A stretch of DNA of 64,000 nucleotides from Planotetraspora kaengkrachanensis (lineage in GTDB: Bacteria > Actinomycetota > Actinomycetes > Streptosporangiales > Streptosporangiaceae), in NCBI RefSeq assembly GCF_016862895.1, contig NZ_BONV01000003.1, positions 62,001 through 126,000 on the forward strand. The letters run 5' to 3'. The number at the start of each line of letters is the position of its first letter. The first letter of the stretch is position 1. Below are positions 23,327 to 55,524 of this stretch, piece after piece. The position numbers and the translations under genes were made by a program. A model generated the notes under the pieces. The model was given only the letters and a program-made list of their open reading frames with translations, was not told where the DNA came from and did no database searches.

Positions 23327-23992
23327 ATGGCTGCCGATGAGGTCATCACCGTACGCGGCGACGCGGAGCTCGTCGCTCGCGCGGGTCACCTGTTCGCCGG
23401 CGTCCGGCACGAGTTCGTCTGCGCGGCCCGCGACCTGAACACGTGGTCGCAACCCGAGGCGCGGCACGCGATCAACGGCCGGCTGCGCGCGGGGGGCACG
23501 GCCGGCGTCACGGTGCGCAAGCTGCTCACCCCGGCCGCACTCGCCGACGAGGTGTCCCGGCGGCACCTGGACCACGTCACGGCCGCGGGCGGCCGGGTGC
23601 GGATCAGCTCGGCGCCCCTTCCCCACGAAACGATCATCATCGACGGGCGGGTGATGATCCTCGCGGGTCCCGACGCTCCCGGCCCGCGCGAGTTCACCGT
23701 CACCACCTCGGCCGCGCTCGTCGGCGGCGTGCACGCGCTCTTCCTCGCCGCGTGGGACAACGCCGCCGACGTGGCCGGCTACCTCTCCGGCGACCGGCCC
23801 CACCTCGACGACGACGAGCGGGCGGTCCTGCGCGCTCTCGGCGCCGGATACACCGACGAGACGGCGGCCCGGCGTCTCGGCCTGTCCGTGCGCACCTACC
23901 GCAGGCGGGTCGCCGAACTCATGGCCGCGCTGGAGGCCGATTCCCGGTTCCAGGCCGGACTGCGCGCGGGCGAACTCGGTCTCACCGGCTAG
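23327..23992 (+). CDS. LuxR-type helix-turn-helix transcriptional regulator
   Basis: A 221-residue protein from ATG 23327. The C-terminal LuxR-like HTH is clear: LRALGAGYTDETAARRLGLS, then VRTYRRRVAELM (about 160-200). The N-terminal part (VRHEFVCAARDLNTW and PHETIIIDGRVMILAGP) resembles the PLD-like/TrmB-type sensing domain found in a group of Streptomyces regulators. No phospho-acceptor domain is present, so it is not a response regulator. It is divergent from the aldo/keto reductase gene and is the likely regulator of it. Its end overlaps the convergent CDP-alcohol phosphatidyltransferase gene by eleven bases. Confidence 0.85.
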   Translation: MAADEVITVRGDAELVARAGHLFAGVRHEFVCAARDLNTWSQPEARHAINGRLRAGGTAGVTVRKLLTPAALADEVSRRHLDHVTAAGGRVRISSAPLPHETIIIDGRVMILAGPDAPGPREFTVTTSAALVGGVHALFLAAWDNAADVAGYLSGDRPHLDDDERAVLRALGAGYTDETAARRLGLSVRTYRRRVAELMAALEADSRFQAGLRAGELGLTG

Positions 23993-24770
23993 CCGTCGAC
24001 GCCGCCTCCGTCCGCGGAGGGCGGTTGCGCCACAGCCAGACGACGTCGCGGCCGAAGGACCACACCAGGGACGCCAGCGCCGCTCCCACCGAGACGACCG
24101 CGACCAAGTACGGCAGAACGTCCGAGGCTGCGACGACGAGCACGATCCCCTGCGTCGCCGCCACGACCTTCCTGGCGAAGCTCGGCGGCAACGTTCCCCG
24201 CAGCCACGGCATCGTCCAGCCGGCCACGACGAAGGCGTACCGCATGGCGCCGATGACCAGGACCCACGCACCCAGGGAGCCCGCGACGTGGACGCTGAGC
24301 ACCAGGATCAGGAAGGCGTCGACCTCCATGTCGAAGCGCGCGCCGAGCTTGGAGACCGTGCCGGTGCGCCTGGCGACCTGGCCGTCGACGGCGTCCAGGA
24401 TCAGGGCCACCGTGGCGAGTGTGACGAGAATCACCAGCGGCAGGCCGCGGGCCGGGTGGCCCGTCATCACCAGGACCGCCACGAGCGCCGTCACACCCCC
24501 GACGAGCAGCGCGCGAGCCAGTGTGACATGATCGGCCGGGCCGAGCGAGCGGGTTCCCGACCGCCGGGCGGCGACGGCGAGGAACGCCCACAGGGCGGCC
24601 ATGTAGACGACGCCGGCCGCCACACTCGCCGTGCTCAGGCCCACCAGGGCGTTCAGCAGACACAACAGGCCCATCTGGACGCCCGCTCCGGCGGCCTGTT
24701 CCCAGTGGATTGAACCCGCGCCGAATTGTGCACGTGTTGTTGGAGTAGTTCGTGCGGACGGTGCCGTCAT
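23982..24770 (-). CDS. CDP-alcohol phosphatidyltransferase family protein
   Basis: A 262-residue integral membrane enzyme with six or seven hydrophobic segments. The family signature D-x2-D-G-x2-A-R-x8-G-x3-D-x3-D is complete (DAVDGQVARR at about 123, then GARFDMEVD). Such enzymes transfer a phospho-alcohol head group from a CDP-linked donor to an acceptor alcohol, as in phosphatidylinositol or phosphatidylglycerol phosphate synthesis. The acceptor cannot be deduced. It is divergent, by 65 bases, from the MDR-PTPS-glycosyltransferase-methyltransferase-flippase operon, and I think it belongs to the same pathway, perhaps making the lipid-linked end product. That is inference from position. Confidence 0.88.
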   Translation of the reverse strand: MTAPSARTTPTTRAQFGAGSIHWEQAAGAGVQMGLLCLLNALVGLSTASVAAGVVYMAALWAFLAVAARRSGTRSLGPADHVTLARALLVGGVTALVAVLVMTGHPARGLPLVILVTLATVALILDAVDGQVARRTGTVSKLGARFDMEVDAFLILVLSVHVAGSLGAWVLVIGAMRYAFVVAGWTMPWLRGTLPPSFARKVVAATQGIVLVVAASDVLPYLVAVVSVGAALASLVWSFGRDVVWLWRNRPPRTEAASTASR

Positions 24771-24835
24771 TCGGAACCCCTGTACTCATACGTACCCATA
24801 TGCACCATCTATCCACCCAGTCGAGGAGACGCTCG

Positions 24836-25822
24836 GTGATACGTACGGCACGTGCCTTCTGGTTCACGTCTCCCGGGGAGGGCGAGATCAGACCGGTCGC
24901 CCTGCCGGAGCCCGGCCCAGGCGAGGTGCAGGTCCGTGCGCTGTGCTCGGGGGTGAGCCGCGGCACCGAGACCCTGGTCCTGCGGGGCGGCGTACCCGAG
25001 AACCAGTACGACGTGATGCGTGCCCCGTTCCAGGAGGGCGACTTCCCCTGGCCGGTCAAGTACGGATACCTCAACGTCGGGATCGTGGAACACGGGCCGC
25101 CGGACCTGCTCGGCCGCGCCGTCTTCTGCCTCTATCCCCACCAGACCCGCTACGTGGTCCCGGCCGCCGCGGTCGTCCCCGTGCCTGACGGCGTGCCCCC
25201 GGAGCGTGCCGTGCTCGCCGGGACCGTCGAGACCGCGGTGAACGCCCTGTGGGACGCCGCCCCGCTGGTCGGCGACCGGATCGCCGTCGTCGGGGCCGGG
25301 ATGGTCGGCTGCGCCGTGGCGGGGGTGCTCGCCGGCTTCCCCGGCGTCAGGGTGCAGCTGGTCGACGTGAACCCCGCGCGGGCCGGCGTCGCGGCGGCGC
25401 TCGGCGTGGGCTTCGCGTCACCCGGCGAGGCCGAGGACGGATGCGACCTCGTGATCCACGCCAGCGCCACCGAGGCGGGGCTGGCGCGCTCTCTGGAGTT
25501 GCTCGCGCCCGAGGGAACGGTCATCGAGCTCAGCTGGTACGGCGACCGGAGGGTCAGCCTGCCCCTGGGCGAGGCCTTCCACTCACGCCGGCTGACCGTA
25601 CGCGGCAGCCAGGTGGGCATGGTGTCCCCGGCACGGCGTTCGCGCCGGAGCTTCACCGACCGGCTTTCGCTCGCGCTGACGCTGCTCTCCGACCCCGTGT
25701 TCGACGCGCTGATCACCGGCGAGAGCGGGTTCGAGGACCTGCCCCGGGTGATGGCCCGGCTCGCCGGCGACGATCCCTCCGCCCTGTGTCACCGAATCGT
25801 CTACGACCCCGTCCAGTACTGA
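24836..25822 (+). CDS. MDR-family dehydrogenase without zinc ligands
   Basis: A 328-residue protein from GTG 24836, with GAGGAGA six bases upstream. It has the medium-chain dehydrogenase/reductase layout: a GroES-like N-terminal domain and a Rossmann motif VVGAGMVGCAVAG at about 155-170. The usual zinc-site GHE sequence is replaced by KYGYLNVGIVEHG and the four-Cys structural zinc lobe is absent, so it is unlikely to be a classical zinc alcohol dehydrogenase. It resembles BchC/threonine-dehydrogenase-like members. It is the first gene of a five-gene operon; the PTPS-like gene starts 13 bases after its stop. It would oxidise an alcohol intermediate of that pathway. Confidence 0.85.
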   Translation: MIRTARAFWFTSPGEGEIRPVALPEPGPGEVQVRALCSGVSRGTETLVLRGGVPENQYDVMRAPFQEGDFPWPVKYGYLNVGIVEHGPPDLLGRAVFCLYPHQTRYVVPAAAVVPVPDGVPPERAVLAGTVETAVNALWDAAPLVGDRIAVVGAGMVGCAVAGVLAGFPGVRVQLVDVNPARAGVAAALGVGFASPGEAEDGCDLVIHASATEAGLARSLELLAPEGTVIELSWYGDRRVSLPLGEAFHSRRLTVRGSQVGMVSPARRSRRSFTDRLSLALTLLSDPVFDALITGESGFEDLPRVMARLAGDDPSALCHRIVYDPVQY

Positions 25823-25834
25823 AAGGCTCCACCC

Positions 25835-26233
25835 TTGTTCAGCATCACCGTTCGCGACCACGTCATGATCGCCCACAGTTTCCGCGGCGAGGTCTTCGGC
25901 CCCGCGCAGCGCCTGCACGGGGCGACGTTCGTGGTGGACGCGACGTTCCGCCGCGCGGAGCTCGACGACGACAACATCGTCGTCGACATAGGGCTGGCCA
26001 CGCAGGAGCTCGGCGGGGTGCTCGCCGAGCTCAACTACCGCAACCTCGACGACGAACCCGCCTTCGCCGGCGTCAACACCTCGACCGAGTACCTGGCCAA
26101 GGTCATCGCCGACCGCCTCGCCGACCGCGTCCACGCGGGCGCGCTCGGCGAGGGGGCCCGCGGGCTCGCCGGGATCACGGTCGCCCTCCACGAGTCGCAC
26201 GTCGCGTGGGCGAGTTACGAGCGCACACTTTGA
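25835..26233 (+). CDS. 6-pyruvoyl-tetrahydropterin synthase / QueD-like protein with altered active site
   Basis: A 132-residue protein, TTG start, GAAAGG at 25821-25826. It has the length and pattern of the 6-pyruvoyl/6-carboxy-tetrahydropterin synthase fold: AHSF at residues 11-14, [10 protein letters not shown], then [20 protein letters not shown] and [10 protein letters not shown]. Compared with QueD, the zinc triad is reduced: the HGH motif reads HGA. The catalytic Cys position before it is Ala (PAQRLHG), and the His of the usual LDH motif is Tyr (LNY). A conserved Glu near the C-terminus is kept. It may catalyse a different reaction or bind a pterin or purine. It is the second gene of the operon; the next gene overlaps its stop. 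Confidence 0.82.
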
Positions 26234-27318
26234 GCACGGCCGGCGTCTTCGCCGTCCTGCCCGGTGACGTCGACGACGAGGCGGCGCCGAGCGGCGGCAA
26301 CGTCTACGACCGCCGCGTGTGCCGGGAACTGGCGGCGGCCGGCCTGCCGGTCCACGAGATCGCCGTGCGGGGCGCCTGGCCGCGCCCGGACGCCGACGCC
26401 CGGGCCGCGCTCGCCCGATCACTCGCCGAGGTGCCCTCCGACGCGGTCGTCCTCCTCGACGGGCTCGTCGCGTGCGGGGTGCCCGACGTCGTCGTGCCGC
26501 AGGCCGGGCGACTGCGCCTGGCGGTCCTGGTCCACCTGCCCCTGGGCGACGAGATCGGGCCGGAGCCCGGCGCGGCGGCCGACCTGGACGCGCGCGAGCG
26601 GGCGACCCTCCAGGCCGCCGGAGCCGTGGTGGCGACCAGCCCATGGACGGCGAAGCGGCTGGCCGGCCACCACGGGCTGGCGGAGGATCGGATCCATGTG
26701 GTCTCACCCGGCGCCGACCGCGCCCCGGCGGCGTCCGGCACCGACGGCGCCTCCCGGCTGCTGTGCGTCGGCTCGGTGACCCCGACCAAGGGCCATGACC
26801 TGCTCGTGGAGGCCCTCGCGGCCGTCCGGGAACCGTCCTGGCACTGCGAGATCGTCGGGCCGCTGAGCCGGGATCCCGCGCACGCGGAGCGGCTGCGGCG
26901 GACGGTCGGGCGGCTCGGGCTCGGCGACCGGGTGCGACTGGCCGGCCCCCTCACGGCGGAGCGGCTGGCCGAGCAGTACGCCCGCGCCGACCTGGTCGTG
27001 CTTCCCTCCCGCTCCGAGACGTACGGCATGGTCGTGACCGAGGCGCTCGCGCGCGGGATTCCGGTGCTGGCCACGGCCGTGGGCGGCGTCCCGGAGACTC
27101 TCGGGCAGGCTTCCGATGGCGGCGTGCCGGGAATCCTTGTATCTCCGGAGGACCCCGCGGCCATCTCGGCGGGGCTTCGCCGCTGGTTCGGCGATCCCGG
27201 CCTGCGACGCCGGCTCCGGCTCTCGGCACTCGACCGCCGTGACCGGCTGGCACCGTGGCAGGAGACGGCAAGGGGCTTGGCCGCAGTGCTGGAACGACTA
27301 CGAGGAGTGACGCGATGA
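26230..27318 (+). CDS. Glycosyltransferase, GT4 family
   Basis: A 362-residue protein from the TTG that overlaps the PTPS-like stop (TTGA). A GT-B fold is indicated by the N-terminal [13 protein letters not shown] pattern and the C-terminal nucleotide-sugar domain: [16 protein letters not shown], then the E-x7-E motif in [18 protein letters not shown] and GGVPETL. It probably uses a UDP-, GDP- or similar sugar donor in the cytoplasm with retention of configuration. Its stop overlaps the methyltransferase ATG by four bases. In this operon it would attach a sugar to the product of the dehydrogenase/PTPS-like steps or to a lipid. Confidence 0.9.
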
Positions 27319-28175
27319 GCACGCCGCCGACCGGCGACGAACCGGTCCGAGTCACCCCGGGCTGGCTGGCCCTGCGCGAGGGCGCGGACGCGGCCGCCAG
27401 GGCGCCGGAGCTGCTCGATCCGCTGCGGGCCTACCTGGCGCAGACCGCACCGGAGCGGCTGGTCATCCAGGACCTCGGCTGCGGCACGGGTTCGCAGGCC
27501 CGGTGGCTCGCCGGGCGGCTGCGCGGGCCGCAACACTGGATCCTCCGTGACCGCGACCCCGATCTGCTCGTCCACGCCGGCGAAAGCCTGCCCGGCTCGG
27601 CCTCCGACGGGGGCCCGGTGACGGCCGAGACGCGCCAGGGCGACCTCACCGACCTCCGCGCGGCGGATTTCAGCGGTACGTCGCTGGTGACCGCTTCCGC
27701 GCTGCTCGACCTGCTCACCTTCGACGAGGTCGACGATCTCGCCGCGGCCTGCGTCGAGGCGGGATGCCCGGCCCTGCTCACCCTGTCCGTCGCGGGCCGG
27801 GCCGACCTGACCCCCGCGGAACCGCTCGACGCCGAGATGACGGGGGCCTTCAACGCGCACCAGCGGCGCACGACGGGCGGCCGCCGCCTGCTCGGTCCCG
27901 ACGCTCCCGCCGCCGCCACCAAGGCCTTCGAACATCGGGGCGCGGTGGTGCGCAGCAGTCCCAGTCCCTGGCGCCTCGGCGCGGACTCCGCCGCGCTGAC
28001 GGAGGAGTGGCTGCGCGGCTGGGTGGCCGCCGCCTGCGAGCAGCGGCCAGATCTCACCGCCGAGGCGGACTCCTACCTGCGGCGACGGATCCGGGCCTGC
28101 GAGGCGGGCGAACTGGAGGTCGTCCTGCACCACACCGACCTGCTCGTGCTCCCCCCGCGGAAGGCCGCCGCGTGA
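27315..28175 (+). CDS. SAM-dependent methyltransferase
   Basis: A 286-residue class I methyltransferase. Motif I is clear (VIQDLGCGTGSQARW, about 49-63), followed by the acidic second strand (ILRDRDPDLL) and the motif III-like ALLDLLTFDEV. The last third contains RRLLGPDAPAAAT and a long helical region that may bind the acceptor. The ATG overlaps the glycosyltransferase stop and the stop overlaps the next GTG, so the order glycosyl transfer, methyl transfer, membrane step is translationally coupled. The acceptor atom is not predictable. Confidence 0.87.
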   Translation: MSTPPTGDEPVRVTPGWLALREGADAAARAPELLDPLRAYLAQTAPERLVIQDLGCGTGSQARWLAGRLRGPQHWILRDRDPDLLVHAGESLPGSASDGGPVTAETRQGDLTDLRAADFSGTSLVTASALLDLLTFDEVDDLAAACVEAGCPALLTLSVAGRADLTPAEPLDAEMTGAFNAHQRRTTGGRRLLGPDAPAAATKAFEHRGAVVRSSPSPWRLGADSAALTEEWLRGWVAAACEQRPDLTAEADSYLRRRIRACEAGELEVVLHHTDLLVLPPRKAAA

Positions 28176-29158
28176 CGGCGATGCGCAGGCTCTGGCCCTG
28201 GCTGCGGACGCTCATCGGAGCGGGCATCCTGGGGGTCCTCGTGTGGCGGGTCGGCACGGGCGCCTTCGTGGACGGGTTCCGCGTGATCGACGGCTGGTCG
28301 GCGGTCGCGGCCCTCGTGATCGGCCTGGCGACCACCGTGGTCAGCGCCTGGCGCTGGTGCCTCGTGGCCCGCCGCCTCGACCTGCGGCTGTCGCTGCCGA
28401 CGGCCGTCGCGGACTGCTACCGCGCGCTGTTCCTCAACGTGCTGCTGCCCGCGGGGGTGCTGGGGGACGTCCACCGGGCGGTCAGCCACGGCCGGAAGTC
28501 CGGGAACGTCGGGCGGGGTGTCCGCGCGGTCGTGCTCGAACGCCTCGCCGGTCAGACGGTGCTCATCGTCGTCGGGGTGACGGTGCTCCTGACGCAGCCC
28601 ACGCTGATCACGGCCGTGGTCGACGGCCTCGCGCCGGGCCGCGCGCCGGCGGCCGCGGCGCTGGTCCTGTCGGCCGTCCTGCTCGTGATCGGCGGGTGGG
28701 CGCTCGCCCGGCGCGGCGGGGCGTGGCACCGCGCCCTTGCGGCGGCGTGGGCGGAGGGCCGCACCGCCCTGCTCGCCCGCGACGTCTGGCCGCGGGTGGC
28801 GCTGCTGTCCGCCGGGGCGGTCGCCGGGCACCTCCTCCTCTTCGTCGTCGCCGCCCGCGCCGCGGGATCACACGCGACGCTCCTGCAGTTGCTGCCGCCG
28901 CTGGTCCTGACGCTCCTCGCGATGGGCCTCCCCGTGAACATCGGGGGGTGGGGCCCGAGGGAGGCCGTCTCCACTCTGGCGTTCGGCGTCGCGGGACTGG
29001 GCGCCGCCCAGGGGCTCACCGCGGCGGTGGTGTACGGCGTGCTGACGTTCGTCTCGACCCTTCCCGGCGCCGTGGTGCTGTTCCTGCGCCGCGGCGGCCG
29101 GGCCCGCGGCCCCGGCGAGTCGTGGCCGGGCGGCACGGTCCGCCCCGCCGTACGGTGA
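28172..29158 (+). CDS. Lysylphosphatidylglycerol synthase transmembrane domain (flippase-like) protein
   Basis: A 328-residue integral membrane protein of the LPG_synthase_TM (UPF0104/AglD-like) family, with about eight hydrophobic helices and the conserved VVLERLAGQ segment after the second pair and GWGPREAVS near the last helices. It lacks the soluble lysyl-transferase domain of MprF. Such domains flip lipids or bind lipid-linked sugars. GTG start overlaps the methyltransferase stop. As the last gene of the operon it suggests that the pathway ends at the membrane, with export or translocation of a glycolipid-like product. Confidence 0.87.
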   Translation: MTAMRRLWPWLRTLIGAGILGVLVWRVGTGAFVDGFRVIDGWSAVAALVIGLATTVVSAWRWCLVARRLDLRLSLPTAVADCYRALFLNVLLPAGVLGDVHRAVSHGRKSGNVGRGVRAVVLERLAGQTVLIVVGVTVLLTQPTLITAVVDGLAPGRAPAAAALVLSAVLLVIGGWALARRGGAWHRALAAAWAEGRTALLARDVWPRVALLSAGAVAGHLLLFVVAARAAGSHATLLQLLPPLVLTLLAMGLPVNIGGWGPREAVSTLAFGVAGLGAAQGLTAAVVYGVLTFVSTLPGAVVLFLRRGGRARGPGESWPGGTVRPAVR

Positions 29159-29210: not shown

Positions 29211-30698
29211 TCAGCGGGCGATCGGGGTCGGCGGCGGGCCGCACCACTGCGCCAGAGCCCCGCGGATCCGGTCGGCGGACGACTCCGAGCCTGCGGCGGC
29301 CGCCCAGGCGACGTAGCCGTCCGGCCGGACGAGCACGAGCGTGCGGGCGGCGTCATTCGCCGTGACGACCCGCACACGGCCCTCCCACCCTGCCGCCGCC
29401 TGCGCGGGGACCCGAGAGCCTGGAGGCACGACCAGCAGCCAGCACCTGCAGCGCAACGCCTGGTAGACGCTCTTCGGGCCGGGACCGGCCAGCGGGAGGT
29501 CCGGCGCGCGCCGGCCCACGAGCGGGTGGGCGCCGGCGGCGGCCGGGTAGGTGAGGCCGATCCCCGAGATGGTCTCCGCCATGCGGAGGGCGACGTGCGG
29601 GTCGCGCATCGCCGTCCGCAGAAGCACCCGCCAGGCCGCGCGCAGCGTCCGGGGCCTGGCCATGGCGCTGCGCAGGAGCCTGCCGCTGATGCGCAGGGAG
29701 ATGTCGCCCGCGTGGTGCCGCTCGCTGCCGTAGGTGTCGAGCAACCATGCCGGCGCTCCGTCCCTGATCACGGCGGCGAGCTTCCAGCCGAGATTGGCCG
29801 CGTCCTGCAGGCCCGTGTTCATCCCGAGGCCGCCCGCCGGGGAGTGCACGTGCGCGGCGTCGCCGGCGAGGAAGACCCGCCCCACGCGATAGGCGGGCAC
29901 CTGCCGCTCGTCACAGCTGAACCGCGATATCCAGCGGGGATCGTGCATGCCGAAGTCGGTGCCGAGCACGCGCCGGGTGATCTCCCGGATCTCGCCGAGC
30001 TCGATCGGGGCGGCGTCCGGGCGCCGCCGGCGCCTGCTCCACACGATCACGCGGTACCAGCCGTCGCCGAAGGGCAGCACGAAGGCGAACCCGTCCTTGC
30101 GCGCGTCCGCCGTCAGCACGTTCGGCGGCGGATCGGCCATCCGCACGTCGCAGAGCAGGAGCGAGCGCGCCACGGACATGCCGGGGAAGGGCAGGCCGAG
30201 CGAGTGCCGCACCGCGCTCCGCGCGCCGTCGGCGCCCACCACGTAGTGCGCCCGCCACGTGCAGTCCCGGCCGTCGTGGGTGCGCACGTCGAGATCCACT
30301 CCGTCGGCGTCCTGGCGGAGCCCGGTCACCTCCGCGCCCGGCACGAACTCGACGCCCATCTTCCTGGCCCGCTCCGTGAGCAGCCGCTCGGTCGTGAACT
30401 GCGGCATGGCCAGCAGGTACGGAAAGCGGGTGGCCAGGCGGGACAGGTCCAGCACCCCGCTCCCGAACACTCGCAGCGCGTCGACGGGAAGGCCGACCGC
30501 CACGAAGTCGTCCGCGAGGTCGCGCGCGTCCAGTTGCTCGAGGGTCCGCGCGTGGACGCCGGCGGCCCGGCTGAGGTTCGACTCGCCGTGGCGGCGTTCG
30601 AGGACGAGGCAGGACAGACCGGCGGCCGCGAGGTCACCCGCGACGAGCAGCCCCGTCGGACCGGCCCCCACGACCACCACGTCCGTCACGGCATCCAT
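29211..30698 (-). CDS. FAD-dependent aromatic hydroxylase/monooxygenase
   Basis: A 495-residue flavoprotein of the PHBH/RdmE/MhpA class. The dinucleotide motif VVVGAGPTGLLVAGDL is at 8-23, the DG motif VVGADGARSAVR at about 155, and the GD motif RVFLAGDAAHVHSPAGG at about 280-296. The C-terminal thioredoxin-like domain (QALRCRCWLLVVPPG onward) is present and complete. It would use NAD(P)H and oxygen to hydroxylate an aromatic or polyketide substrate. It stands alone, convergent with the flippase-like operon; the glycosyltransferase gene follows on the same strand but 84 bases downstream, so the two are separated or weakly linked. Confidence 0.9.
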   Translation of the reverse strand: MDAVTDVVVVGAGPTGLLVAGDLAAAGLSCLVLERRHGESNLSRAAGVHARTLEQLDARDLADDFVAVGLPVDALRVFGSGVLDLSRLATRFPYLLAMPQFTTERLLTERARKMGVEFVPGAEVTGLRQDADGVDLDVRTHDGRDCTWRAHYVVGADGARSAVRHSLGLPFPGMSVARSLLLCDVRMADPPPNVLTADARKDGFAFVLPFGDGWYRVIVWSRRRRRPDAAPIELGEIREITRRVLGTDFGMHDPRWISRFSCDERQVPAYRVGRVFLAGDAAHVHSPAGGLGMNTGLQDAANLGWKLAAVIRDGAPAWLLDTYGSERHHAGDISLRISGRLLRSAMARPRTLRAAWRVLLRTAMRDPHVALRMAETISGIGLTYPAAAGAHPLVGRRAPDLPLAGPGPKSVYQALRCRCWLLVVPPGSRVPAQAAAGWEGRVRVVTANDAARTLVLVRPDGYVAWAAAAGSESSADRIRGALAQWCGPPPTPIAR

Positions 30699-30781
30699 GG
30701 CGTCCCTTTCCCGTGGATCTCGCTGAGAGACCCACTACCGGGGGACGAAATACCCTAAACCAGACAAATGACACTTTCCAT

Positions 30782-31930
30782 TTAGCGCGTGGCGGCGAGG
30801 TCGGCGAACATGCGCTCCCACATCGGCATGACCTTCTGCGGCGAGTACTCCAGGGCCGTCGCTGCGGCCGCGGAGCCCATCCGGACCCGCAGATCCCGGT
30901 CGGCGATGAGCCGGTTCATCCCGGCGGCCAGGGCGTCGACGTCCCTGGCCGGGACGAGCAGGCCGTCGTGATCATGCGTGAGCACGTCGCCGGGGCCGGT
31001 CGGGCAGTCGAAGGCGACGATCGGCAGCGCGTGGGCCATCGACTCGATCATCACCATCGGCAGCCCCTCGAACCGGGAGCTGAGCACGTAGATCGAGGCC
31101 TTGGCCAGCTCCTGGTCGAGCCGGTCGCTGCGGCCCATGAGCGTGACGCTGTCGGCCAGCCCGTGCTCGGCGATCAGCTTGGCGAGGCCGTCCTTCTTCG
31201 GGCCGGTGCCGAAGATGCGCAGGCTCCACGCCGGATTGCGGGCCGCGACCTGCTTGAACGCCGGGATGAGCAGGTCGAAGCCCTTCTGCGCGACGAGCCT
31301 GCCCGCGGCGACCACGATCGGGTTCTCCTGCCGGGTGGGCGCTCGGCCGACGGTGGCGACGGCGTTCGGCACCCACTCGACGCGGGCGCCGGGCAGCAGT
31401 TCGCGGTAGTCCTCGCGATCGCTGGCCGTCAGCGTGACGACGGCGTCGAGCCGGCCGTAGTAGCGGGCGATGTCGCTGCGCACGGTCTCCGGATAGGTGC
31501 CCAGGTTCATGTGCTCCTGGGCGACGCGGACGACGCTCTCGGGGGTGCGGCGGGCCGAGATGAGGTTCAGCGCCGGCCGGGTGGTCACCAGGATCCCGTC
31601 CTTCAGCGACGAGACGTAGTCGATGACCGCCCGTTCCACGCGCTCGGTGAACCAGTCGGCCTTGAACTCCCCGACGGGAACGATCCTGCCGCGCATCATG
31701 CGCCAGGCACGGCGCCCCACCGAGTCGGTCCGCACCCCGCCCCTCTGGTCGGCCAGCGCGGTGACGCGGACACGGGAATCGATCTCGAACTGCGGCTCGT
31801 CGCGCCGCCGGACCGTGCTGATCACCTCGACGTCGTGACCGGCGGCCGCCATGGCGCCGGCCTGGTTGAGGACAGTGCGTATGGTGCCCCCCATGCCGTA
31901 GGCGTGGAGGAGCATGTAACGGATCTTCAT
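30782..31930 (-). CDS. Glycosyltransferase, GT4 family
   Basis: A 382-residue protein from ATG 31930 (GTG 31933 precedes it in frame). The N-terminal HAYGMGGTIRTVLNQAGA is the acceptor-side motif of GT4 enzymes; the donor domain has VVAAGRLVAQKGFDLL, and the E-x7-E is in SRFEGLPMVMIESMAHALP. The enzyme probably adds a hexose to a cell-surface or secondary-metabolite acceptor. It is 16 bases downstream of the sulfotransferase gene on the same strand, so the two are likely one transcription unit that builds a sulfated glycan or glycolipid. Confidence 0.9.
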   Translation of the reverse strand: MKIRYMLLHAYGMGGTIRTVLNQAGAMAAAGHDVEVISTVRRRDEPQFEIDSRVRVTALADQRGGVRTDSVGRRAWRMMRGRIVPVGEFKADWFTERVERAVIDYVSSLKDGILVTTRPALNLISARRTPESVVRVAQEHMNLGTYPETVRSDIARYYGRLDAVVTLTASDREDYRELLPGARVEWVPNAVATVGRAPTRQENPIVVAAGRLVAQKGFDLLIPAFKQVAARNPAWSLRIFGTGPKKDGLAKLIAEHGLADSVTLMGRSDRLDQELAKASIYVLSSRFEGLPMVMIESMAHALPIVAFDCPTGPGDVLTHDHDGLLVPARDVDALAAGMNRLIADRDLRVRMGSAAAATALEYSPQKVMPMWERMFADLAATR

Positions 31931-31949
31931 CACACCGTCCCGGGAAGGC

Positions 31950-32825
31950 TCATGTCCGCTCCGCCGTACGGGGGAGGTAGTCCCAGCTCACGCTCATCGG
32001 CCGCAACGATTCCGGAATCTCGTCCTCGGAGGGGAGATCACGGCCCGGCTGCACGGTGCCGCTGCTGATCTTGTCCTTCCAGTCGCCGAGTCCCTTTTCC
32101 TTGACGGACAGCTCGCCGTAGGTGAGCATGCCGTCCTCCCACGGGATATCGAGGAATTCGCAGATCCGGCGCGTCTCCTTCTCCGGTTCCACGGTCAGGT
32201 CCTCGTATCTCACGACCAGGCCGGGAAGCGCCTTCCGAGCCCGCTCGACCGCCTTCATGTAGCGCAGGGCGTCAAGCGCGGCCTCCTCGGGGGTGCGCTT
32301 GGCCGGGTCGGCCTCATGCCACGAGGTCGCGATGGACGCCGGATGACGCAGGAGGAAGATGAACCGCGCGTCGGGCCAGCAGGCCTTGATCCGCTTGTAG
32401 GCGAAGGCGTTGGCCGGAGTCTTGTCCACCATGAACCGCTTGCCGCTCTTGACCAGTTCCCGGTGCAGCACCCGGTCCCAGAGCAGATGTTCCAGGTCGG
32501 CCCTGTTGTGGCCGAGCGCGCTCATCGCCGACTCGGCCAGCGGCGTCCCGTAGTTCACGAAGAGCCGCCGCACGTGGAGCTCATGGGGAGCGTGCAACAT
32601 CGAGTGGGCGTTCAGCATCGCCCTCAACAGGGTGGAACCCGAGCGAACCGGCGAGAGGATGAAGATCGGCGCGGTCAGAAGCCGATCGACCTGAGGATCC
32701 TCCGGCGGCCGTACCAGGTCGTCCGGCGCGGCCTCAGCCGTGGTGGACCCCGTTTTTCCTACTCGATTTAGCTGGAATCCCGCGTACTTAATGAAGGCGT
32801 TATTGACCTTCCGCTGCCAGGTCAT
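31950..32825 (-). CDS. Sulfotransferase family protein
   Basis: A 291-residue PAPS-dependent sulfotransferase. The 5'-phosphosulfate loop is in FILSPVRSGSTLLRAML (about 55-71) and the 3'-phosphate motif is RFIFLLRHPASIATSW. The likely catalytic base follows in the loop. It resembles the bacterial carbohydrate/glycolipid sulfotransferases, such as Stf0-like enzymes. The N-terminal 40 codons are AT-richer than the rest, and the upstream 230 bases are also AT-rich, which fits either a strong promoter or acquired DNA. Paired with a glycosyltransferase downstream, it suggests sulfation of a surface glycan. Confidence 0.9.
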   Translation of the reverse strand: MTWQRKVNNAFIKYAGFQLNRVGKTGSTTAEAAPDDLVRPPEDPQVDRLLTAPIFILSPVRSGSTLLRAMLNAHSMLHAPHELHVRRLFVNYGTPLAESAMSALGHNRADLEHLLWDRVLHRELVKSGKRFMVDKTPANAFAYKRIKACWPDARFIFLLRHPASIATSWHEADPAKRTPEEAALDALRYMKAVERARKALPGLVVRYEDLTVEPEKETRRICEFLDIPWEDGMLTYGELSVKEKGLGDWKDKISSGTVQPGRDLPSEDEIPESLRPMSVSWDYLPRTAERT

Positions 32826-33056: not shown

Positions 33057-35351
33057 TCAGCCGGTCGCCGCGGCGTGCCGCTCGAGCCGTACGACGACGC
33101 TCTTGGAGGTGGGGGTGTTCGAGGTGTCCGCGGTCGAGTCGAGCGGCACGAGCACGTTGGTCTCGGGGAAGTAGGCCGCGCAGCACCCGCGCGCGGTGGA
33201 GTAGGCGATCACGCGGAACGCCTCCGCCGTCCGCTCCCCGTCGGGCCACTCGCTGACCAGGTCGACGAGCTCGCCGTCCGCGATGCCGCGTTCGGCCAGG
33301 TCGTCGGGATTGACGAACACGACCCGGCGGCCGTTGTGCACGCCGCGGTAGCGGTCGCCCATGCCGTAGATCGTGGTGTTGTACTGGTCGTGGCTGCGCA
33401 CCGTCTGGAGCAGGAGGCGTCCCGGGGCGAGTCGCAGGACCTCGAGGTCGTTGGCGGTGAAGTTGGCCCTGCCCGTGTCGGTCGGGAAGCGGCGCTCGTC
33501 ACGGGGGGCGTTGGGCAGGGCGAAGCCCCCGGGCCTGCGCACCCTGGCGTTGAAGTCCTCGAATCCCGGCACCACACGCTCGATGCGGTCGCGGACGGCG
33601 TCGTGGTCGGCCTCGAACCGCTCCCAGGGGATGCCGGACGGGCCGTCCTGCTCGAAGAGCCTCATGGCCAGCCGGCTGACGATGGCCACCTCGGAGAGCA
33701 GGTCCGGCGAGGCGGGAGCCAGCCGTCCCCGTGAGGCGTGCACCATGCCCATAGAGTCCTCGACCGTCACGAAGCGGTCGCCGTCCCTCTCCGTACGGCC
33801 CAGCGTGGGGAGGATGAGCGCCTCCTCCCCGCACACGGCGTGCGACCGGTTCAGCTTGGTCGACACCTGGACGGTGAGCCTGGCCCGGCGCATGGCCGCC
33901 TCGGTCACCGCCGTGTCCGGCGTCGCGGAGACGAAGTTGCCGCCCATCGCGACGAAGACCTTCGCGTGCCCGTCGCGCAGCGCCCTGATCGACTCCACCG
34001 CGTCGGCCCCGTGCCGGCGGGGCGGCTCGAAGCCGAACTCGTCACGCAGCGCGTCGAGGAACGCCGCCGACGGCTTCTCGTAGATGCCCATCGTCCGGTC
34101 GCCCTGGACGTTGGAGTGCCCGCGCACCGGGCAGACGCCGGCTCCCGGGCGTCCCACGTTGCCGCGCAGCAGCAGGAAGTTGACGACCTCCCGGATGGTG
34201 GCGACGGAGTTCTTGTGCTGGGTCAGGCCCATGGCCCAGCACACGATCACCGACTTCGCCCCGAGGACGTCCTGGACCGTCTCCTCGACGGCCGCCCGGG
34301 GCAGGCCCGTCGCCTCCTCCACGTCCGCCCATTCGAGCTCGCGGACGTTCTTCTCGAAGTCGTGGAACCCGTGCGTGTGGGTCTCGACGAACTCGTGGTC
34401 GATCACCGACCCCGGGTTCGCGTCCTCGGCCTCGAGCATCAGCTTGGACAGGGCCTGGAACAGCGCCATGTCTCCGTTGAGCCGGATCTGCAGGAACCGG
34501 TCGGCCAGCTTCGTGCCGCGCCCGGCGACCCCGCTCGCCTTCTGGGGGTTCTTGAACCGCAACAGGCCGGCCTCGGGCAGCGGATTGACCGCGACGATGC
34601 GGGCGCCGTTCCGCTTGGCCTTCTCCAGCGCCGACAACATGCGCGGGTGGTTGGTGCCGGGGTTCTGCCCGACCACGAAGACGAGGTCGGCCTTGTGGAG
34701 GTCGTCCAGCGAGACGGTCCCCTTGCCGATGCCCAGTGTCTGGGTGAGCGCCGAGCCGCTGGACTCGTGGCACATGTTGGAGCAGTCCGGCAGGTTGTTG
34801 GTGCCGAAACGACGGACCAGCAACTGGTAGAGGAACGCGGCCTCGTTCGACGTGCGCCCGGAGGTGTAGAAGAGCGCCTCGTCCGGCGACTCGAGCGCCC
34901 TGAGCTCCCTGGCGATGATCGAGAACGCCTCGTCCCAGGCCACCGGCTCGTAGTGGTCGGACCCTGCGGGCTTGTACATGGGCTCGGTGAGCCTGCCCTG
35001 CTGACCCAGCCAGTAGTCGCTGCGCCCGGCCAGCTCCGACACGGTGTGCTCGGCGAAGAATTCGCCGGTCACCCGGCGGAGGGTCGCCTCCTCCGCGACC
35101 GCCTTGGCGCCGTTCTCGCAGAACTCCGCGGGGCTGCGGTGGTCGCCTTCCGGCCAGGCGCAACCGGGGCAGTCGAAGCCCTGCTTCTGGTTCACGCGCA
35201 CCAGGGTCAGCAGTGAGCGCCTGACGCCCATCTGGGAGTAGGACATCGCCAGCGAATGAGCCACCGCGGGAACTCCCGCGGCCCATTCCTTCGGTGGTCC
35301 AACCTGCAGACGCTCATCCCCGGCGTCACGCCTGGGAGCTTTTTTTGCCAC
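33057..35351 (-). CDS. FdhF/YdeP family molybdopterin oxidoreductase
   Basis: A 764-residue protein of the formate-dehydrogenase-alpha-like group. The N-terminal Cys pair is in FDCPGCAWPEGD with a third Cys in EFCENGAKA, not the full four-Cys iron-sulfur motif of respiratory formate dehydrogenases. The probable Mo ligand Cys is in NMCHESSGSA. VRGHSNVQGDRTMG, FVAMGGNFVSATPD and RTVRSHDQYNTTIYGM (bis-MGD contacts) are typical of YdeP/FdhF proteins. It is likely cytoplasmic, since no Tat signal is seen. It is divergent from an OFA-family transporter, which suggests formate or oxalate metabolism. YdeP relatives in enteric bacteria are linked with acid resistance. Confidence 0.92.
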   Translation of the reverse strand: MAKKAPRRDAGDERLQVGPPKEWAAGVPAVAHSLAMSYSQMGVRRSLLTLVRVNQKQGFDCPGCAWPEGDHRSPAEFCENGAKAVAEEATLRRVTGEFFAEHTVSELAGRSDYWLGQQGRLTEPMYKPAGSDHYEPVAWDEAFSIIARELRALESPDEALFYTSGRTSNEAAFLYQLLVRRFGTNNLPDCSNMCHESSGSALTQTLGIGKGTVSLDDLHKADLVFVVGQNPGTNHPRMLSALEKAKRNGARIVAVNPLPEAGLLRFKNPQKASGVAGRGTKLADRFLQIRLNGDMALFQALSKLMLEAEDANPGSVIDHEFVETHTHGFHDFEKNVRELEWADVEEATGLPRAAVEETVQDVLGAKSVIVCWAMGLTQHKNSVATIREVVNFLLLRGNVGRPGAGVCPVRGHSNVQGDRTMGIYEKPSAAFLDALRDEFGFEPPRRHGADAVESIRALRDGHAKVFVAMGGNFVSATPDTAVTEAAMRRARLTVQVSTKLNRSHAVCGEEALILPTLGRTERDGDRFVTVEDSMGMVHASRGRLAPASPDLLSEVAIVSRLAMRLFEQDGPSGIPWERFEADHDAVRDRIERVVPGFEDFNARVRRPGGFALPNAPRDERRFPTDTGRANFTANDLEVLRLAPGRLLLQTVRSHDQYNTTIYGMGDRYRGVHNGRRVVFVNPDDLAERGIADGELVDLVSEWPDGERTAEAFRVIAYSTARGCCAAYFPETNVLVPLDSTADTSNTPTSKSVVVRLERHAAATG

Positions 35352-51207: not shown

Positions 51208-52491
51208 ATGCATCGGGGATCAGGGGACGAGGCGCCGCCCTACGCGGCGAGTTGGAGCGCCGACGACGCCATCGAATACATCGCGACGACCTGCCTGACG
51301 CCGGGCGTGCCGGGAACGGTCGGGGTCGAGCTGGAGTGGTTCGTCCACGACGCGCGTGATCCGTACGCGCGGGTGGATCCGGCCCGTGTCACGGCAGCGC
51401 TGCCCGCCGAGGGCGAACTGGCGGGCGCCCTGTCGCGCGAGCCCGGCGGCCAGGTGGAGCTCAGCTCCGCCCCCGCGCCCTCTCTCCGCGGGGCCGTCGC
51501 CACCGCCGCGGCCGACATGGCGGGCCTGCGCGCCCGCCTGGGCGCCGCCGGTCTGCGCCTGTCCGGAGGCGGCGCCGATCCGTACCGCCCGCCGGTGCGG
51601 GTGCGGGACGCCCCCCGTTACGTCGCGATGGAGAGCTACTTCGACCGCGCGGGCCCGCACGGCAGGACCATGATGTGCGGAACGGCGTCCGTCCAGGTGT
51701 GCCTCGACGCGGGGCTGCCGGGAGCCGGGCCCGCGGGGATGGCACGGCGGTGGCGGCTGGCGCACGCCATCGGGCCGGTTCTGGTCGGGGCCTTCGCCAG
51801 TTCACCGTGTCACGCGGGCCGGCCGACCGGATGGAAGTCGACGCGGCAGGCCGTGTGGGCGCGGCTCGACCCGCGCAGGACGTCGCCCCCCGCCGGCTCC
51901 GACCCGGCCGAGGCGTGGGCGCGATACGCGCTGGACGCGCCCGTGATGTGCGTCCGCGGACCGGCCCCGTGGCAGGTGCCCCTCGGCCTCACCCTGCGCG
52001 ACTGGCTGGCGGGCGCGGGGCCCCGCCCGGTCACCCGCGAGGACGTCGACTATCACCTCACCACCCTGTTCCCGCCGGTGCGGCCGCACGGCTGGCTCGA
52101 ACTGCGGATGGTCGACGCACAGCACGGCGACGACGGCTGGCTCGTCCCCCTCGCCGTGGCCACCGCGCTCGTCGAGGATCCCGCGGCCGCCGACCTGGCC
52201 CTGGCCGCGACGGAGTGCTGGGACCCCTTCGAACCCGGTCCCTGGCGGCGCGCGGCCGCGCTGGGGCTGTCCGATCCCACGATCGCCGCGGCCGCGGCGA
52301 CCTGTTTCGCGGCGGCGCTGGACGCGCTGGACCGGATGAACGCCCCCGCCGCCGTCCGCACGGCTGTCGAGCGCTTCACCGACGCCTACGTCAGCCGGGG
52401 CAGATGCCCTGCCGACGACCCCGAACGCCTTTCTCACCACACCCCCCGCTCCGAGATCCGCGAACCGATCCGAACGGAGGCCGGGACATGA
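51208..52491 (+). CDS. egtA: EgtA: glutamate-cysteine ligase for ergothioneine biosynthesis
   Basis: A 427-residue protein of the EgtA group of GCS2-like ligases. VGVELEWFVHD near residue 38 and GGQVELSSAP near 85 are the ATP/glutamate site motifs. MMCGTASVQVCLDAG, GWKSTRQAVWARLDP and LTTLFPPVRPHGWLELRMVD are also conserved. It makes gamma-glutamylcysteine, the sulfur donor for EgtB. The start is ATG at 51208. It is the first gene of the operon: the egtB ATG overlaps its stop. A few bases ahead lie tandem TTGACC and AT-rich stretches that may form the promoter. Confidence 0.93.
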   Translation: MHRGSGDEAPPYAASWSADDAIEYIATTCLTPGVPGTVGVELEWFVHDARDPYARVDPARVTAALPAEGELAGALSREPGGQVELSSAPAPSLRGAVATAAADMAGLRARLGAAGLRLSGGGADPYRPPVRVRDAPRYVAMESYFDRAGPHGRTMMCGTASVQVCLDAGLPGAGPAGMARRWRLAHAIGPVLVGAFASSPCHAGRPTGWKSTRQAVWARLDPRRTSPPAGSDPAEAWARYALDAPVMCVRGPAPWQVPLGLTLRDWLAGAGPRPVTREDVDYHLTTLFPPVRPHGWLELRMVDAQHGDDGWLVPLAVATALVEDPAAADLALAATECWDPFEPGPWRRAAALGLSDPTIAAAAATCFAAALDALDRMNAPAAVRTAVERFTDAYVSRGRCPADDPERLSHHTPRSEIREPIRTEAGT

Positions 52492-53798
52492 CCGGCGAAG
52501 ACATCCGCAGCCGCACCTACGACCTGCTCACCGCCGCCCGCGAGCGCAGCCTCGCACTCACCGACTGCGTCGGCGACGACGACCTGACCAAGCAGCACTC
52601 GCGGCTGATGTCCCCCCTCGTGTGGGACCTCGCGCACGTGGGCAGCCAGGAGGAGCTGTGGCTGCTGCGCGCCGTGGGCGGCCAGGAGCCCATGCGCCCC
52701 GAGATCGACTCGCTCTATGACGCGTTCGAGCACCCTCGGGCCGAGCGTCCGCGCCTTCCCCTGCTCTCACCCGGGGAGTCGCGCCGGTACATCGCGACCG
52801 TCCGGGAGCGGGTGACCGACCTGCTCGAACGCTCCCCGGTCGAGGGGAACCCGCTGGTCGAGCACGGCTTCGCGTTCGGGATGATCGCCCAGCACGAGCA
52901 GCAGCACGACGAGACCATGCTGGCCACCCACCAGTTGCGCGAGGGCACGCCGGTGTTGTCGGCCCCGCCGCCCGCGGCGAGTTCGGGACGGTGGCCGAAG
53001 GAGGTGCTCGTCCCCGCCGGTCCGTTCACCATGGGCACCTCGACGGAGCCCTGGGCCCTCGACAACGAACGGCCCGCGCACCAGGTGCACGTGCCCGCTT
53101 ACTGGATCGACACCGTGCCCGTCGGCAACGCCGACTACCTGGCGTTCATGGAGGCGGGCGGATACGAACGGCGGGAGCTCTGGTCGGCGGCGGGCTGGGC
53201 GCACAGGCAGGACGCCGGGCTGACCGGGCCCAGGTTCTGGTGGCGTGAGGGCGGCACGTGGCTGCGGCGGCGGTTCGGGCACGTCGAGCCGGTTCCGCCG
53301 CACGAGCCGGTCGTGCACGTCTGCTGGTACGAGGCCGAGGCGTACGCCTCCTGGGCCGGCAGGCGGCTGCCCACCGAGGCCGAGTGGGAGAAGGCGGCCA
53401 GGCACGACCCGGCGGCCGGCCGCTCCCGCCGCTACCCGTGGGGGGACGAGGAGCCCGGCGCCGAGCACGCCAACCTCGGCCAGCGCCACCTGCAGGCCGC
53501 CCCCCTCGGCGCCTACCCCGCCGGGGCCTCCGCGTACGGCGTCCGCCAGCTGATCGGGGACGTCTGGGAGTGGACCTCCAGCGACTTCCGCGGGTACCCG
53601 GGATTCGCCGCGTTCCCCTACCGGGAGTACTCCGAGGTGTTCTTCGGCGAGGAGTACAAGGTGTTGCGCGGCGGCTCGTTCGCCACCGACCCGGTCGCCT
53701 GCCGGGGCACGTTCCGCAACTGGGACTACCCGATCAGGCGGCAGATCTTCTCGGGATTCCGCACGGCACGCGACGCGGCTCCCGGCGAGGGCGTCTGA
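52488..53798 (+). CDS. egtB: EgtB: hercynine oxygenase (sulfoxide synthase)
   Basis: A 436-residue protein from the ATG overlapping the egtA stop. The N-terminal DinB-like domain carries the iron ligands: His in WDLAHVG near 51 and the pair in QHEQQHDETM near 135 and 139. The C-terminal FGE-sulfatase (formylglycine-generating-like) domain shows VPAGPFTMGTS, NERPAHQVHVPAYWID, RLPTEAEWEKAARHD, GDVWEWTSSDF and LRGGSFAT. With oxygen and iron it joins hercynine and gamma-glutamylcysteine to the sulfoxide. Length and motif order match the family. The egtC ATG follows by a one-base overlap (TGATG). Confidence 0.95.
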   Translation: MTGEDIRSRTYDLLTAARERSLALTDCVGDDDLTKQHSRLMSPLVWDLAHVGSQEELWLLRAVGGQEPMRPEIDSLYDAFEHPRAERPRLPLLSPGESRRYIATVRERVTDLLERSPVEGNPLVEHGFAFGMIAQHEQQHDETMLATHQLREGTPVLSAPPPAASSGRWPKEVLVPAGPFTMGTSTEPWALDNERPAHQVHVPAYWIDTVPVGNADYLAFMEAGGYERRELWSAAGWAHRQDAGLTGPRFWWREGGTWLRRRFGHVEPVPPHEPVVHVCWYEAEAYASWAGRRLPTEAEWEKAARHDPAAGRSRRYPWGDEEPGAEHANLGQRHLQAAPLGAYPAGASAYGVRQLIGDVWEWTSSDFRGYPGFAAFPYREYSEVFFGEEYKVLRGGSFATDPVACRGTFRNWDYPIRRQIFSGFRTARDAAPGEGV

Positions 53799-54556
53799 TG
53801 TGCCGTCACCTGGCTTACCTGGGCGAACCCGTCACCCTGCGCGAGGTGCTCATCGACCCGCCGTTCGGCCTGCACCGGCAGGCCTGGGCACCGCGGCGGC
53901 AGCGGTACGGCACGGTCAACGCCGACGGGTTCGGCGCGGGCTGGTACGCCGACGGAGACCCGGTGCCCGCCCGGTACCGTCATGCGGGTCCGATGTGGGC
54001 GGACGACTCCTTCGCCGACGTGGCGCGGGTCACCCGCACGCGGGCGCTGCTCGCCGCGGTCCGCTCGGCGACCGAGGGGACCGCCCCGGACGTCTCCGCC
54101 GCCTGCCCCTTCCGGGACGGCCGCCACCTGTTCAGCCACAACGGCGTCGTGGCCGGCTGGCCGGGCTCGGCCGCCGGGCTGGCCGGGCTGCTGCCCGCCG
54201 CGCTGCTCCTCGACCTGCCGGCCCGCTCGGACTCCGCGCTCGTGTGGGCGCTGGTCAGACATCGGCTGGCCGGAGGGTCGACCATGGCCGGCGCGCTCGC
54301 CCGCACGGTCCGTGACGTGGCGGCGCACGCGGACGGCCGGCTGAACCTGCTGATCACCGATGGCGAGGCGATCGCCGCGACGGCCTACGGCGACACCCTC
54401 GCGTACCGGGTGGGCGAGCGCGGGGTCGTGGTGGCCTCGGAGCCGTCCGACGACGACCCGGGATGGGTCGACGTCCCCGATGCGAGCCTGCTCGTCGCCC
54501 GCGGCGGCGAGGTGTCGGTCTCCCCAATCGAAGCCGCGGACACGGAGGAAGCATGA
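53798..54556 (+). CDS. egtC: EgtC: gamma-glutamyl hercynylcysteine sulfoxide hydrolase
   Basis: A 252-residue class II glutamine amidotransferase-like protein. Cys2 (MCRHLAYLG) is the N-terminal nucleophile after Met removal. NADGFGAGWY and LFSHNGVVAGW are the amide-binding loops, and DSALVWALVRHRL and RLNLLITDG follow. It removes glutamate from the EgtB product, leaving hercynylcysteine sulfoxide. The ATG starts within the egtB stop codon and its own stop overlaps egtD (ATGA). Confidence 0.94.
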   Translation: MCRHLAYLGEPVTLREVLIDPPFGLHRQAWAPRRQRYGTVNADGFGAGWYADGDPVPARYRHAGPMWADDSFADVARVTRTRALLAAVRSATEGTAPDVSAACPFRDGRHLFSHNGVVAGWPGSAAGLAGLLPAALLLDLPARSDSALVWALVRHRLAGGSTMAGALARTVRDVAAHADGRLNLLITDGEAIAATAYGDTLAYRVGERGVVVASEPSDDDPGWVDVPDASLLVARGGEVSVSPIEAADTEEA

Positions 54557-55524
54557 CCACGCTGACCATCGACAACCACCTGTCCGCCGGCTACCTCGAC
54601 GCGGCGCTGCGCGCGGACGCGGTCGACGGCCTGACCTCCGTGCCCAAGCGGCTGCGGCCCGCGTGGTTCTACGACGCCCGCGGCAGCGAGTTGTTCGAGG
54701 AGATCACCCGGTTGCCCGAGTACTACCCGACGCGCGCGGAACGGGAGATCCTCGTGGCCCACGCGGGCGACATCGCCGCGTTCGCGGGCGCGCAGACGCT
54801 CGTCGAGCTCGGCTCGGGCTCGTCGGAGAAGACCCGGCTGCTGCTCGGGGCGATGCGGTCCGCGGGCACGCTGAGCAGGTACGTGCCGGTGGACGTGAGC
54901 GAGAGCGCGCTGATGGGCGCCGCGCACGCGCTGCGGGCCGACTACCCCGAGCTCGCCGTGCACGCCGTCATCGCCGATTTCGGCGAGCACCTCAGCGAGC
55001 TTCCCCGCGGGGGCCGCCGGATGGTGGCCTTCCTCGGCAGCACGATCGGCAATCTCGTGCCCGACGAGCGTGCGGCGTTCCTGCTCGACCTGTACGGCAC
55101 GCTGTCGCCGGGCGACTCGCTCCTGCTCGGCACCGACCTGGTCAAGGATCCGGCCGTCCTCGTGGCGGCGTACGACGACGCGGCAGGCGTTACGGCGGAG
55201 TTCAACGCCAACGTCCTGCGGGTGCTCAACCGGGAACTGGGGGCCGACTTCGACCCGTCGGCCTTCGCCCACCGCGCGGTGTGGGACTCCGGCAACGAGT
55301 GGATGGAGATGCGGCTGCGCTCGCTGCGGCCCCAGTCGGTACGGCTTCCCGCCGTGGACCTGGTCGCCGAGTTCGCCGAGGGCGAGGAGATCCGTACCGA
55401 GATCTCCGCGAAGTTCCGTCCCGAGGGGGTCCGAGCCGAACTGGCCGCGAGCGGGTTCGACCTGCGCCACTGGTGGACGGACCGGGCGGGCAGGTTCGGG
55501 CTCTCGCTGTCGTTCAGGCGCTGA
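54553..55524 (+). CDS. egtD: EgtD: L-histidine N-alpha-methyltransferase
   Basis: A 323-residue protein. PAWFYDARGSELFEEITRLP and EYYPTRAEREIL near the start, VELGSGSSEKTRLLL at about 83-97 (SAM motif I), VAFLGSTIGNLVPDERAAFL, and FAHRAVWDSGNEWMEM are diagnostic. It trimethylates histidine to hercynine, the first committed step of ergothioneine synthesis. Last gene of the egt operon; the next gene starts 305 bases downstream. The egtE (C-S lyase) step has no gene in the cluster. Confidence 0.95.
   Translation: MTTLTIDNHLSAGYLDAALRADAVDGLTSVPKRLRPAWFYDARGSELFEEITRLPEYYPTRAEREILVAHAGDIAAFAGAQTLVELGSGSSEKTRLLLGAMRSAGTLSRYVPVDVSESALMGAAHALRADYPELAVHAVIADFGEHLSELPRGGRRMVAFLGSTIGNLVPDERAAFLLDLYGTLSPGDSLLLGTDLVKDPAVLVAAYDDAAGVTAEFNANVLRVLNRELGADFDPSAFAHRAVWDSGNEWMEMRLRSLRPQSVRLPAVDLVAEFAEGEEIRTEISAKFRPEGVRAELAASGFDLRHWWTDRAGRFGLSLSFRR

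Follow-up and report, generated by a model that had tools for sequence, protein, structure and literature searches.

We describe a block of six genes in a DNA stretch of 64,000 nucleotides from Planotetraspora kaengkrachanensis (contig NZ_BONV01000003.1, positions 62,001 to 126,000; hereafter the window) and propose that it encodes the core of a pathway leading from guanosine triphosphate (GTP) to a lipid-linked, surface-exposed and sugar-bearing product. For this whole model, from GTP to the membrane, we estimate a probability of about 0.5; that the pathway starts from GTP is, taken by itself, highly probable. The block encodes a CDP-alcohol phosphatidyltransferase, an MDR-type dehydrogenase, a T-fold protein homologous to the pterin synthase PTPS, a GT4 glycosyltransferase, a methyltransferase and a flippase-like membrane protein (Table 1). 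A preceding sequence-only reading of the window had suggested an unknown small molecule or a lipid-linked glycoconjugate as product. This suggestion is still the best one, with a GTP-derived product as refinement; the reading was incomplete in that it missed the named subfamily of the T-fold protein, PTPS-IV, and its solved relative, and overall its interpretation is partly supported. A creatininase-family enzyme, the RibD_C reductase and a transferase similar to the lipoteichoic acid primase LtaP are encoded outside the window and yet shape our view of the pathway.

The six genes form a stable block and a real operon. They were found together in 106 of 121 loci, which comprise the top 80 among at least 592 confirmed PTPS matches (mostly Streptomyces), 40 stretches chosen for spread from genome samples of the order and the class, and the window. 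Gene counts at these loci are based on tblastn (E up to 1e-8, match anywhere in the stretch), and loci truncated by contig ends were retained and scored as being without the genes. Individually, PTPS and GT4 were found in 121, the MDR dehydrogenase in 120, the phosphatidyltransferase in 116, the LPG_synthase_TM protein in 113 and the methyltransferase in 112 of the 121 loci, the GT4 match being weak (35-38% identity) in L154, L155, L156 and L169. Of the 120 loci with a called PTPS gene, 119 have the MDR gene immediately upstream of it, and the remaining locus, L096, starts at PTPS. This adjacency, together with the frequency of the complete set, shows that the grouping is not due to chance, and the scattering in other genomes that the earlier reading had named as a counter-argument was not seen for the six genes. 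The phosphatidyltransferase family was called in 98 loci; its gene is transcribed divergently in 85 of them and in the same direction as the operon in 13. Named loci span Streptomyces, Amycolatopsis, Pseudonocardia, Kutzneria, Phytohabitans and Actinomadura among others, and PTPS relatives were found in 62 of the 150 genomes sampled from the order and in 44 of the 296 sampled from the class (overlapping samples). In the window, positions, strands and order of the genes and the 65-base divergent gap are as previously described, and so are the 4-base stop-start overlaps at three junctions (TTGA, ATGA and GTGA); the spacing between the MDR and PTPS genes is 12 bases (25823-25834) instead of the 13 given before. 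Both promoters are presumably located in the divergent gap.

The start from GTP is indicated by the genes that accompany the operon in related loci. GTP cyclohydrolase II (GCHII), which had been suggested as an extra partner to look for, was found in 103 of the 121 loci; 93 contain a creatininase-family gene. At the position that we take to be the switch between a formylated pyrimidine (FAPy) and a diaminopyrimidine (APy) as product, with residues other than Tyr marking the formylpyrimidine-forming kind, 92 of the 103 GCHIIs carry a non-Tyr residue (Met in 71, His in 18, Gln in 2 and Leu in 1) and 11 carry Tyr. In this they mostly resemble SCO6655, which is reported (Spoonamore 2006) to form FAPy and to have Met as switch residue. 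The creatininase-family gene stands alongside 91 of the 92 non-Tyr GCHIIs and none of the 11 Tyr GCHIIs (Fisher 6e-14), and RibD_C alongside all 11 Tyr and 6 of the 92 non-Tyr GCHIIs, the latter with 33-36% identity only (Fisher 6e-11); kinship is ignored in both values. In two of the Tyr loci, L155 (10814-12172) and L156 (12496-13803), GCHII and RibD_C are fused in one reading frame near a divergent PTPS-IV locus. In S. meliloti, the formylpyrimidine is deformylated by an enzyme of the creatininase family (PMC9478397). Most simply, these pairings would mean that the pathway depends on the deformylated pyrimidine, with a deformylase recruited where GCHII stops early. The cluster creatininase scored higher with the MftE and creatininase models than with the ArfB model, all scores being below the cut-off.

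The genome of the window encodes three GCHIIs, all with Tyr at the switch position. Two of them adjoin RibD_C genes (contigs 37 and 40) and fall, apart from the RibBA of the same genome, into a group (100/99) that contains 9 of the 11 Tyr-type cluster sequences. A creatininase gene with 62% identity to the cluster members is located on contig 12. It is possible, judging from these genes, that the GTP-derived pyrimidine is supplied in trans. As a separate observation, an inositol-monophosphatase-family gene was found in 12 of the 121 loci and is located next to, or not far from, the cluster GCHII in L104, L126, L133, L140, L145, L146, L160 and L162-L164; its product might remove the ribosyl phosphate.

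The T-fold protein of the window carries the motif FGPAQ; among 18 homologues, FGPA is invariant and Q25 conserved to at least 90%. The one clear relative among solved structures is SCO6650 from S. coelicolor (PDB 3d7j), matched over the full length with an E-value of 1.8e-73. SCO6650 is reported (Spoonamore 2008) to lack zinc, the triad and PTPS activity. Compared with human PTPS, GKCN is changed to GPAQ, HGHN to HGAT and LDHKNLD to LNYRNLD. The catalytic Cys, one of the three zinc-binding His and both members of the Asp-His pair of PTPS are therefore replaced, and the protein lacks the catalytic residues of PTPS-I and PTPS-II. The substitutions A30 and Y68 are invariant in the 18 homologues, which suggests new chemistry rather than decay. 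Due to the loss of these residues, the previously proposed assay of PTPS activity with dihydroneopterin triphosphate is unlikely to be informative. FGPAQ is the signature of the PTPS-IV subfamily of COG0720 (cluster 62), and the neighbourhood network of this subfamily includes PF00925 and PF01872 (PMC5445326). Such a neighbourhood is present in the relatives (GCHII as above, RibD_C chiefly in Tyr-type loci) and absent from the window locus, where the corresponding pairs are unlinked.

The membrane part of the model starts from the phosphatidyltransferase. Its motif DxxDGxxAR(x8)GxxxDxxxD, which marks the family, shows no variation among the 15 sequences aligned; profile matches to choline/ethanolamine and serine phosphotransferases were not decisive. 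With respect to the Pfam cut-offs, the phosphatidyltransferase, PTPS, GT4 and LPG_synthase_TM proteins score above and the MDR dehydrogenase and methyltransferase just below. The PDB profile matches of the MDR protein are MDR dehydrogenases, chiefly in the nucleotide-binding part, and the nearest solved relatives of GT4 are 3c4q/3c48. The AlphaFold model of the methyltransferase (pLDDT 92.6) matched class I methyltransferases in Foldseek; neither this search nor the PDB sequence search pointed to a substrate, both returning generic methyltransferases only. A second methyltransferase family is found near the operon in eight loci (L148, L149, L152, L170-L174), and three of these (L148, L152, L174) gave no tblastn match to the usual methyltransferase. 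The LPG_synthase_TM protein scored below the cut-off of TIGR00374 and can be regarded as flippase-like by its family match.

An alkaline-phosphatase-superfamily membrane protein may link the operon to the cell envelope. It is encoded as a separate gene in 9 loci and in the same frame as the phosphatidyltransferase in 10. LtaP is its only PDB profile match (E 0.001), and Foldseek ranked LtaP and LtaS at the top, followed by MCR-1 and EptC and, lower, GacH. All 14 sequences have the residues E231, H392, D468 and H469 at the metal-ligand positions, and 13 of the 14 have the putative nucleophile T274. The copy in the genome of the window (contig 31, 67% identity to the cluster members) has five hydrophobic segments. 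We infer a five-transmembrane, LtaS/LtaP-like protein that would transfer head groups outside the cell. None of the six operon families was matched in the 18.5-kb regions that surround the LtaP-like, GCHII-RibD_C and creatininase genes of this genome, all of which are unlinked to the operon.

The distribution of the LtaP-like gene follows that of the operon. In the order it was found in 19 of 150 genomes, all of them among the 62 PTPS-IV-positive ones (p 8e-9), and in Streptomyces (101 genomes) in 40 of 41 clearly PTPS-IV-positive genomes and in none of the 60 others (p 2e-27), kinship being ignored in both values. One of the 42 PTPS matches in Streptomyces, that of G495 (E 7e-4, 32% identity over 75 residues), was scored as not PTPS-IV; counted as positive, it changes the figures to 40 of 42 versus 0 of 59. 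Cluster-type GCHII and creatininase are confined to the same 40 Streptomyces genomes as the operon and the LtaP-like gene, the identity of the four sets being judged by eye. Cluster-type genes were defined here by cutoffs chosen post hoc, at 70% identity for GCHII (next 62%), classed by identity and not by switch residue, and at 69% for creatininase (next full-length match 61%); just under the latter are matches of 56-61% in seven PTPS-negative genomes and some short fragments at up to 64%. In the searches for the LtaP-like gene (order, Streptomyces) and for creatininase (Streptomyces), scoring covered, for many genomes, a part of the first-look candidates (no more than 9, 14 and 27, respectively), so that a copy may have been missed. 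As read by eye, GCHII lies on the PTPS contig within ~6 kb in 35 of the 40 genomes and on a separate contig in five, and the LtaP-like gene is near PTPS in just 3 of the 40. With an operon that occurs patchily in Streptomyces and an LtaP-like gene that is mostly unlinked to it, hitchhiking is a poor explanation for the match between them.

We propose the following sequence of steps. In the first, GCHII would open GTP to FAPy, which is then deformylated by the creatininase-family enzyme; alternatively, GCHII would yield APy directly, with the RibD_C reductase alongside, and in the organism of the window the unlinked Tyr-type GCHII-RibD_C pairs could serve as the source. The genetic link of this step is observed, and its chemistry is in part presumed. 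We infer the later steps from protein family and gene linkage. The MDR dehydrogenase and PTPS-IV, jointly or successively, would convert a 2-amino-4-oxopyrimidine to a modified pyrimidine or pterin core by a reaction other than that of PTPS, and GT4 and the methyltransferase would add a sugar and a methyl group. The CDP-alcohol phosphatidyltransferase may then turn the product into a phospholipid head group, and the LPG_synthase_TM protein may carry the lipid across the membrane. Finally, the LtaP/LtaS-like transferase, which is unlinked here and for which co-occurrence is observed, would use the lipid as a donor outside the cell. Going further, we tentatively speculate that many actinomycetes make a phospholipid with a glycosylated and methylated GTP-derived pyrimidine or pterin head group, the core of which is formed by a re-purposed T-fold protein with its constant MDR partner; the lipid would be flipped and its phospho-head group passed on to an envelope polymer by the dedicated LtaS-like enzyme. 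We know of no counterpart to a nucleotide-derived surface decoration of this kind.

Several observations weigh against this model. The window locus itself contains neither GCHII, creatininase, RibD_C nor the LtaP-like transferase, and supply in trans therefore has to be assumed. The non-Tyr GCHIIs form a single group in the tree (95/81; 22 rows), and the co-occurrence statistics ignore ancestry. The structural model of the transferase is middling (pLDDT 73.2, TM-scores to LtaP of 0.34/0.44). The LtaP-like gene was not found in 43 of the 62 PTPS-IV-positive genomes of the order, and in G499, a Streptomyces with a PTPS-IV of 69% identity, neither this gene nor the cluster-type GCHII and creatininase were found. 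In L154, L155 and L169, the MDR-PTPS pair and the weak GT4 match are present, and no phosphatidyltransferase, methyltransferase or LPG_synthase_TM gene was found by tblastn. The lipid part is thus not universal.

These three loci, two of whose missing genes are the phosphatidyltransferase and the LPG_synthase_TM protein, would suit a soluble, exported pyrimidine or pterin glycoside, for which GCHII, GT4 and the methyltransferase are fitting enzymes and in which the membrane proteins would serve export or another lipid rather than a phospholipid head group. Pterin glycosides are known from cyanobacteria and resemble the product proposed here in having a GTP-derived ring with a sugar; as lipid head groups they are not known to us. 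However, the phosphatidyltransferase is present in almost all loci with an invariant catalytic motif and is fused to the LtaP-like domain in 10 of them, which makes such a glycoside rather unlikely. The same fusion speaks against two separate products, one of the operon and one of the GTP-opening and LtaP-like genes, that merely share lineages. The rarity of LtaP-like genes near PTPS in Streptomyces, the window locus devoid of the extra genes and the neglect of ancestry in the statistics are in line with such a separation, but the occurrence of operon, GCHII, creatininase and LtaP-like gene in the same 40 of 101 Streptomyces genomes renders it improbable.

A role in making or modifying F420 or a related deazaflavin or pterin, with the sugar and membrane genes as tailoring, is still somewhat less probable: PTPS-IV has a patchy distribution (62 of the 150 genomes from the order, 42 matches among the 101 from Streptomyces) in comparison to F420, which is widespread in actinomycetes (F420 genes were not searched for), and the phosphatidyltransferase and its LtaP-like partner do not fit. 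In favour of this role, and thus against our model, PTPS-IV has been tied to archaeal F420 by unpublished work cited in PMC5041015, and the set of GCHII, deformylase and RibD_C is similar to the archaeal pathway towards riboflavin and F420 (in part background of PMC9478397).

That the T-fold protein is an ordinary QueD or tetrahydrobiopterin enzyme in an incidental neighbourhood, as its PF01242 match and its weak match to the QueD model (34.1 bits versus a cut-off of 89.25) might suggest, can be rejected, since its catalytic residues are replaced by others that are invariant, its neighbourhood is stable and different, and the genome, which has a single PF01242 copy, contains no credible QueC (QueE, QueF and tetrahydrobiopterin genes were not searched for). 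The sole QueC match is partial and borderline, with 22.2 bits (cut-off 22); it covers 56 of the 210 positions and lies within a frame of 832 aa. The earlier placement of the protein outside canonical QueD is thereby supported.

Table 1 Features of the six-gene locus in the window (positions within the 64,000-nucleotide stretch)
Feature	Position	Strand	Evidence
CDP-OH_P_transf (CDP-alcohol phosphatidyltransferase), 262 aa, ~7 hydrophobic segments	23982..24770	-	PF01066 43.4 bits, cut-off 22
Divergent intergenic region, 65 bases	24771..24835	.	sequence
MDR-type dehydrogenase, 328 aa, GTG start	24836..25822	+	PF00107 26.5 bits, cut-off 31.8
PTPS-IV T-fold protein, 132 aa, TTG start, FGPAQ = residues 21-25	25835..26233	+	PF01242 80.6 bits
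GT4 glycosyltransferase, 362 aa, TTG start	26230..27318	+	PF00534 113.2 bits
S-adenosylmethionine-dependent methyltransferase, 286 aa	27315..28175	+	PF13649 26.7 bits, cut-off 27
LPG_synthase_TM flippase-like membrane protein, 328 aa, ~7 hydrophobic segments (hydropathy)	28172..29158	+	PF03706 109.3 bits

Downstream of the operon, the minus strand encodes an FAD monooxygenase (Rng_hyd_C type), a GT4 and a sulfotransferase (29211-32825). A similar-sized gene, a GT4 match and a further gene follow in the same order in L137, from a genome of the same genus. Elsewhere in the window, an FdhF/YdeP-family oxidoreductase (33057-35351) scores above its NCBIfam cut-off, as does each of the four genes, with short overlaps, of an ergothioneine cluster EgtA-EgtB-EgtC-EgtD (51208-55524).

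Compared with known systems, the proposed pathway would resemble a lipoteichoic-acid or EptA-type head-group donor system with a riboflavin-like first step. The T-fold protein has the PTPS-IV signature and matches SCO6650 over its full length, and the PF00925/PF01872 neighbourhood published for the subfamily is seen in its relatives; the six-gene operon, the creatininase and the LtaP-like partner are not described, and no function is assigned, in the accessible part of PMC5445326. The creatininase-family partner of the non-Tyr loci resembles the formylpyrimidine deformylases ArfB/BrbF (PMC9478397). In contrast to the riboflavin-type context of GCHII and deformylase, both are linked here to MDR, PTPS-IV, GT4 and membrane genes. 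With LtaS/LtaP and the head-group transferases of the EptC/MCR type, the LtaP-like protein has in common five transmembrane segments, an alkaline-phosphatase-superfamily domain, the metal ligands and the best sequence and fold matches. It differs from LtaS/LtaP in being remote and in its fusion to the phosphatidyltransferase.

In conclusion, the name of the subfamily, a single structure and its neighbourhood with GCHII and RibD_C are already published; for the whole gene set, no description was found among the listed papers of the open-licence literature, which include some on PTPS subfamilies. PTPS-IV is not known to have an established function in bacteria. The partners now defined give this subfamily, for which a structure has been solved, a role that can be tested. 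Our findings predict that creatininase-family genes beside non-Tyr GTP cyclohydrolases encode formylpyrimidine deformylases. Furthermore, they point to a possible new class of envelope lipids in Streptomyces and other actinomycetes, which was reached via an unlinked gene that shares the distribution of the operon.

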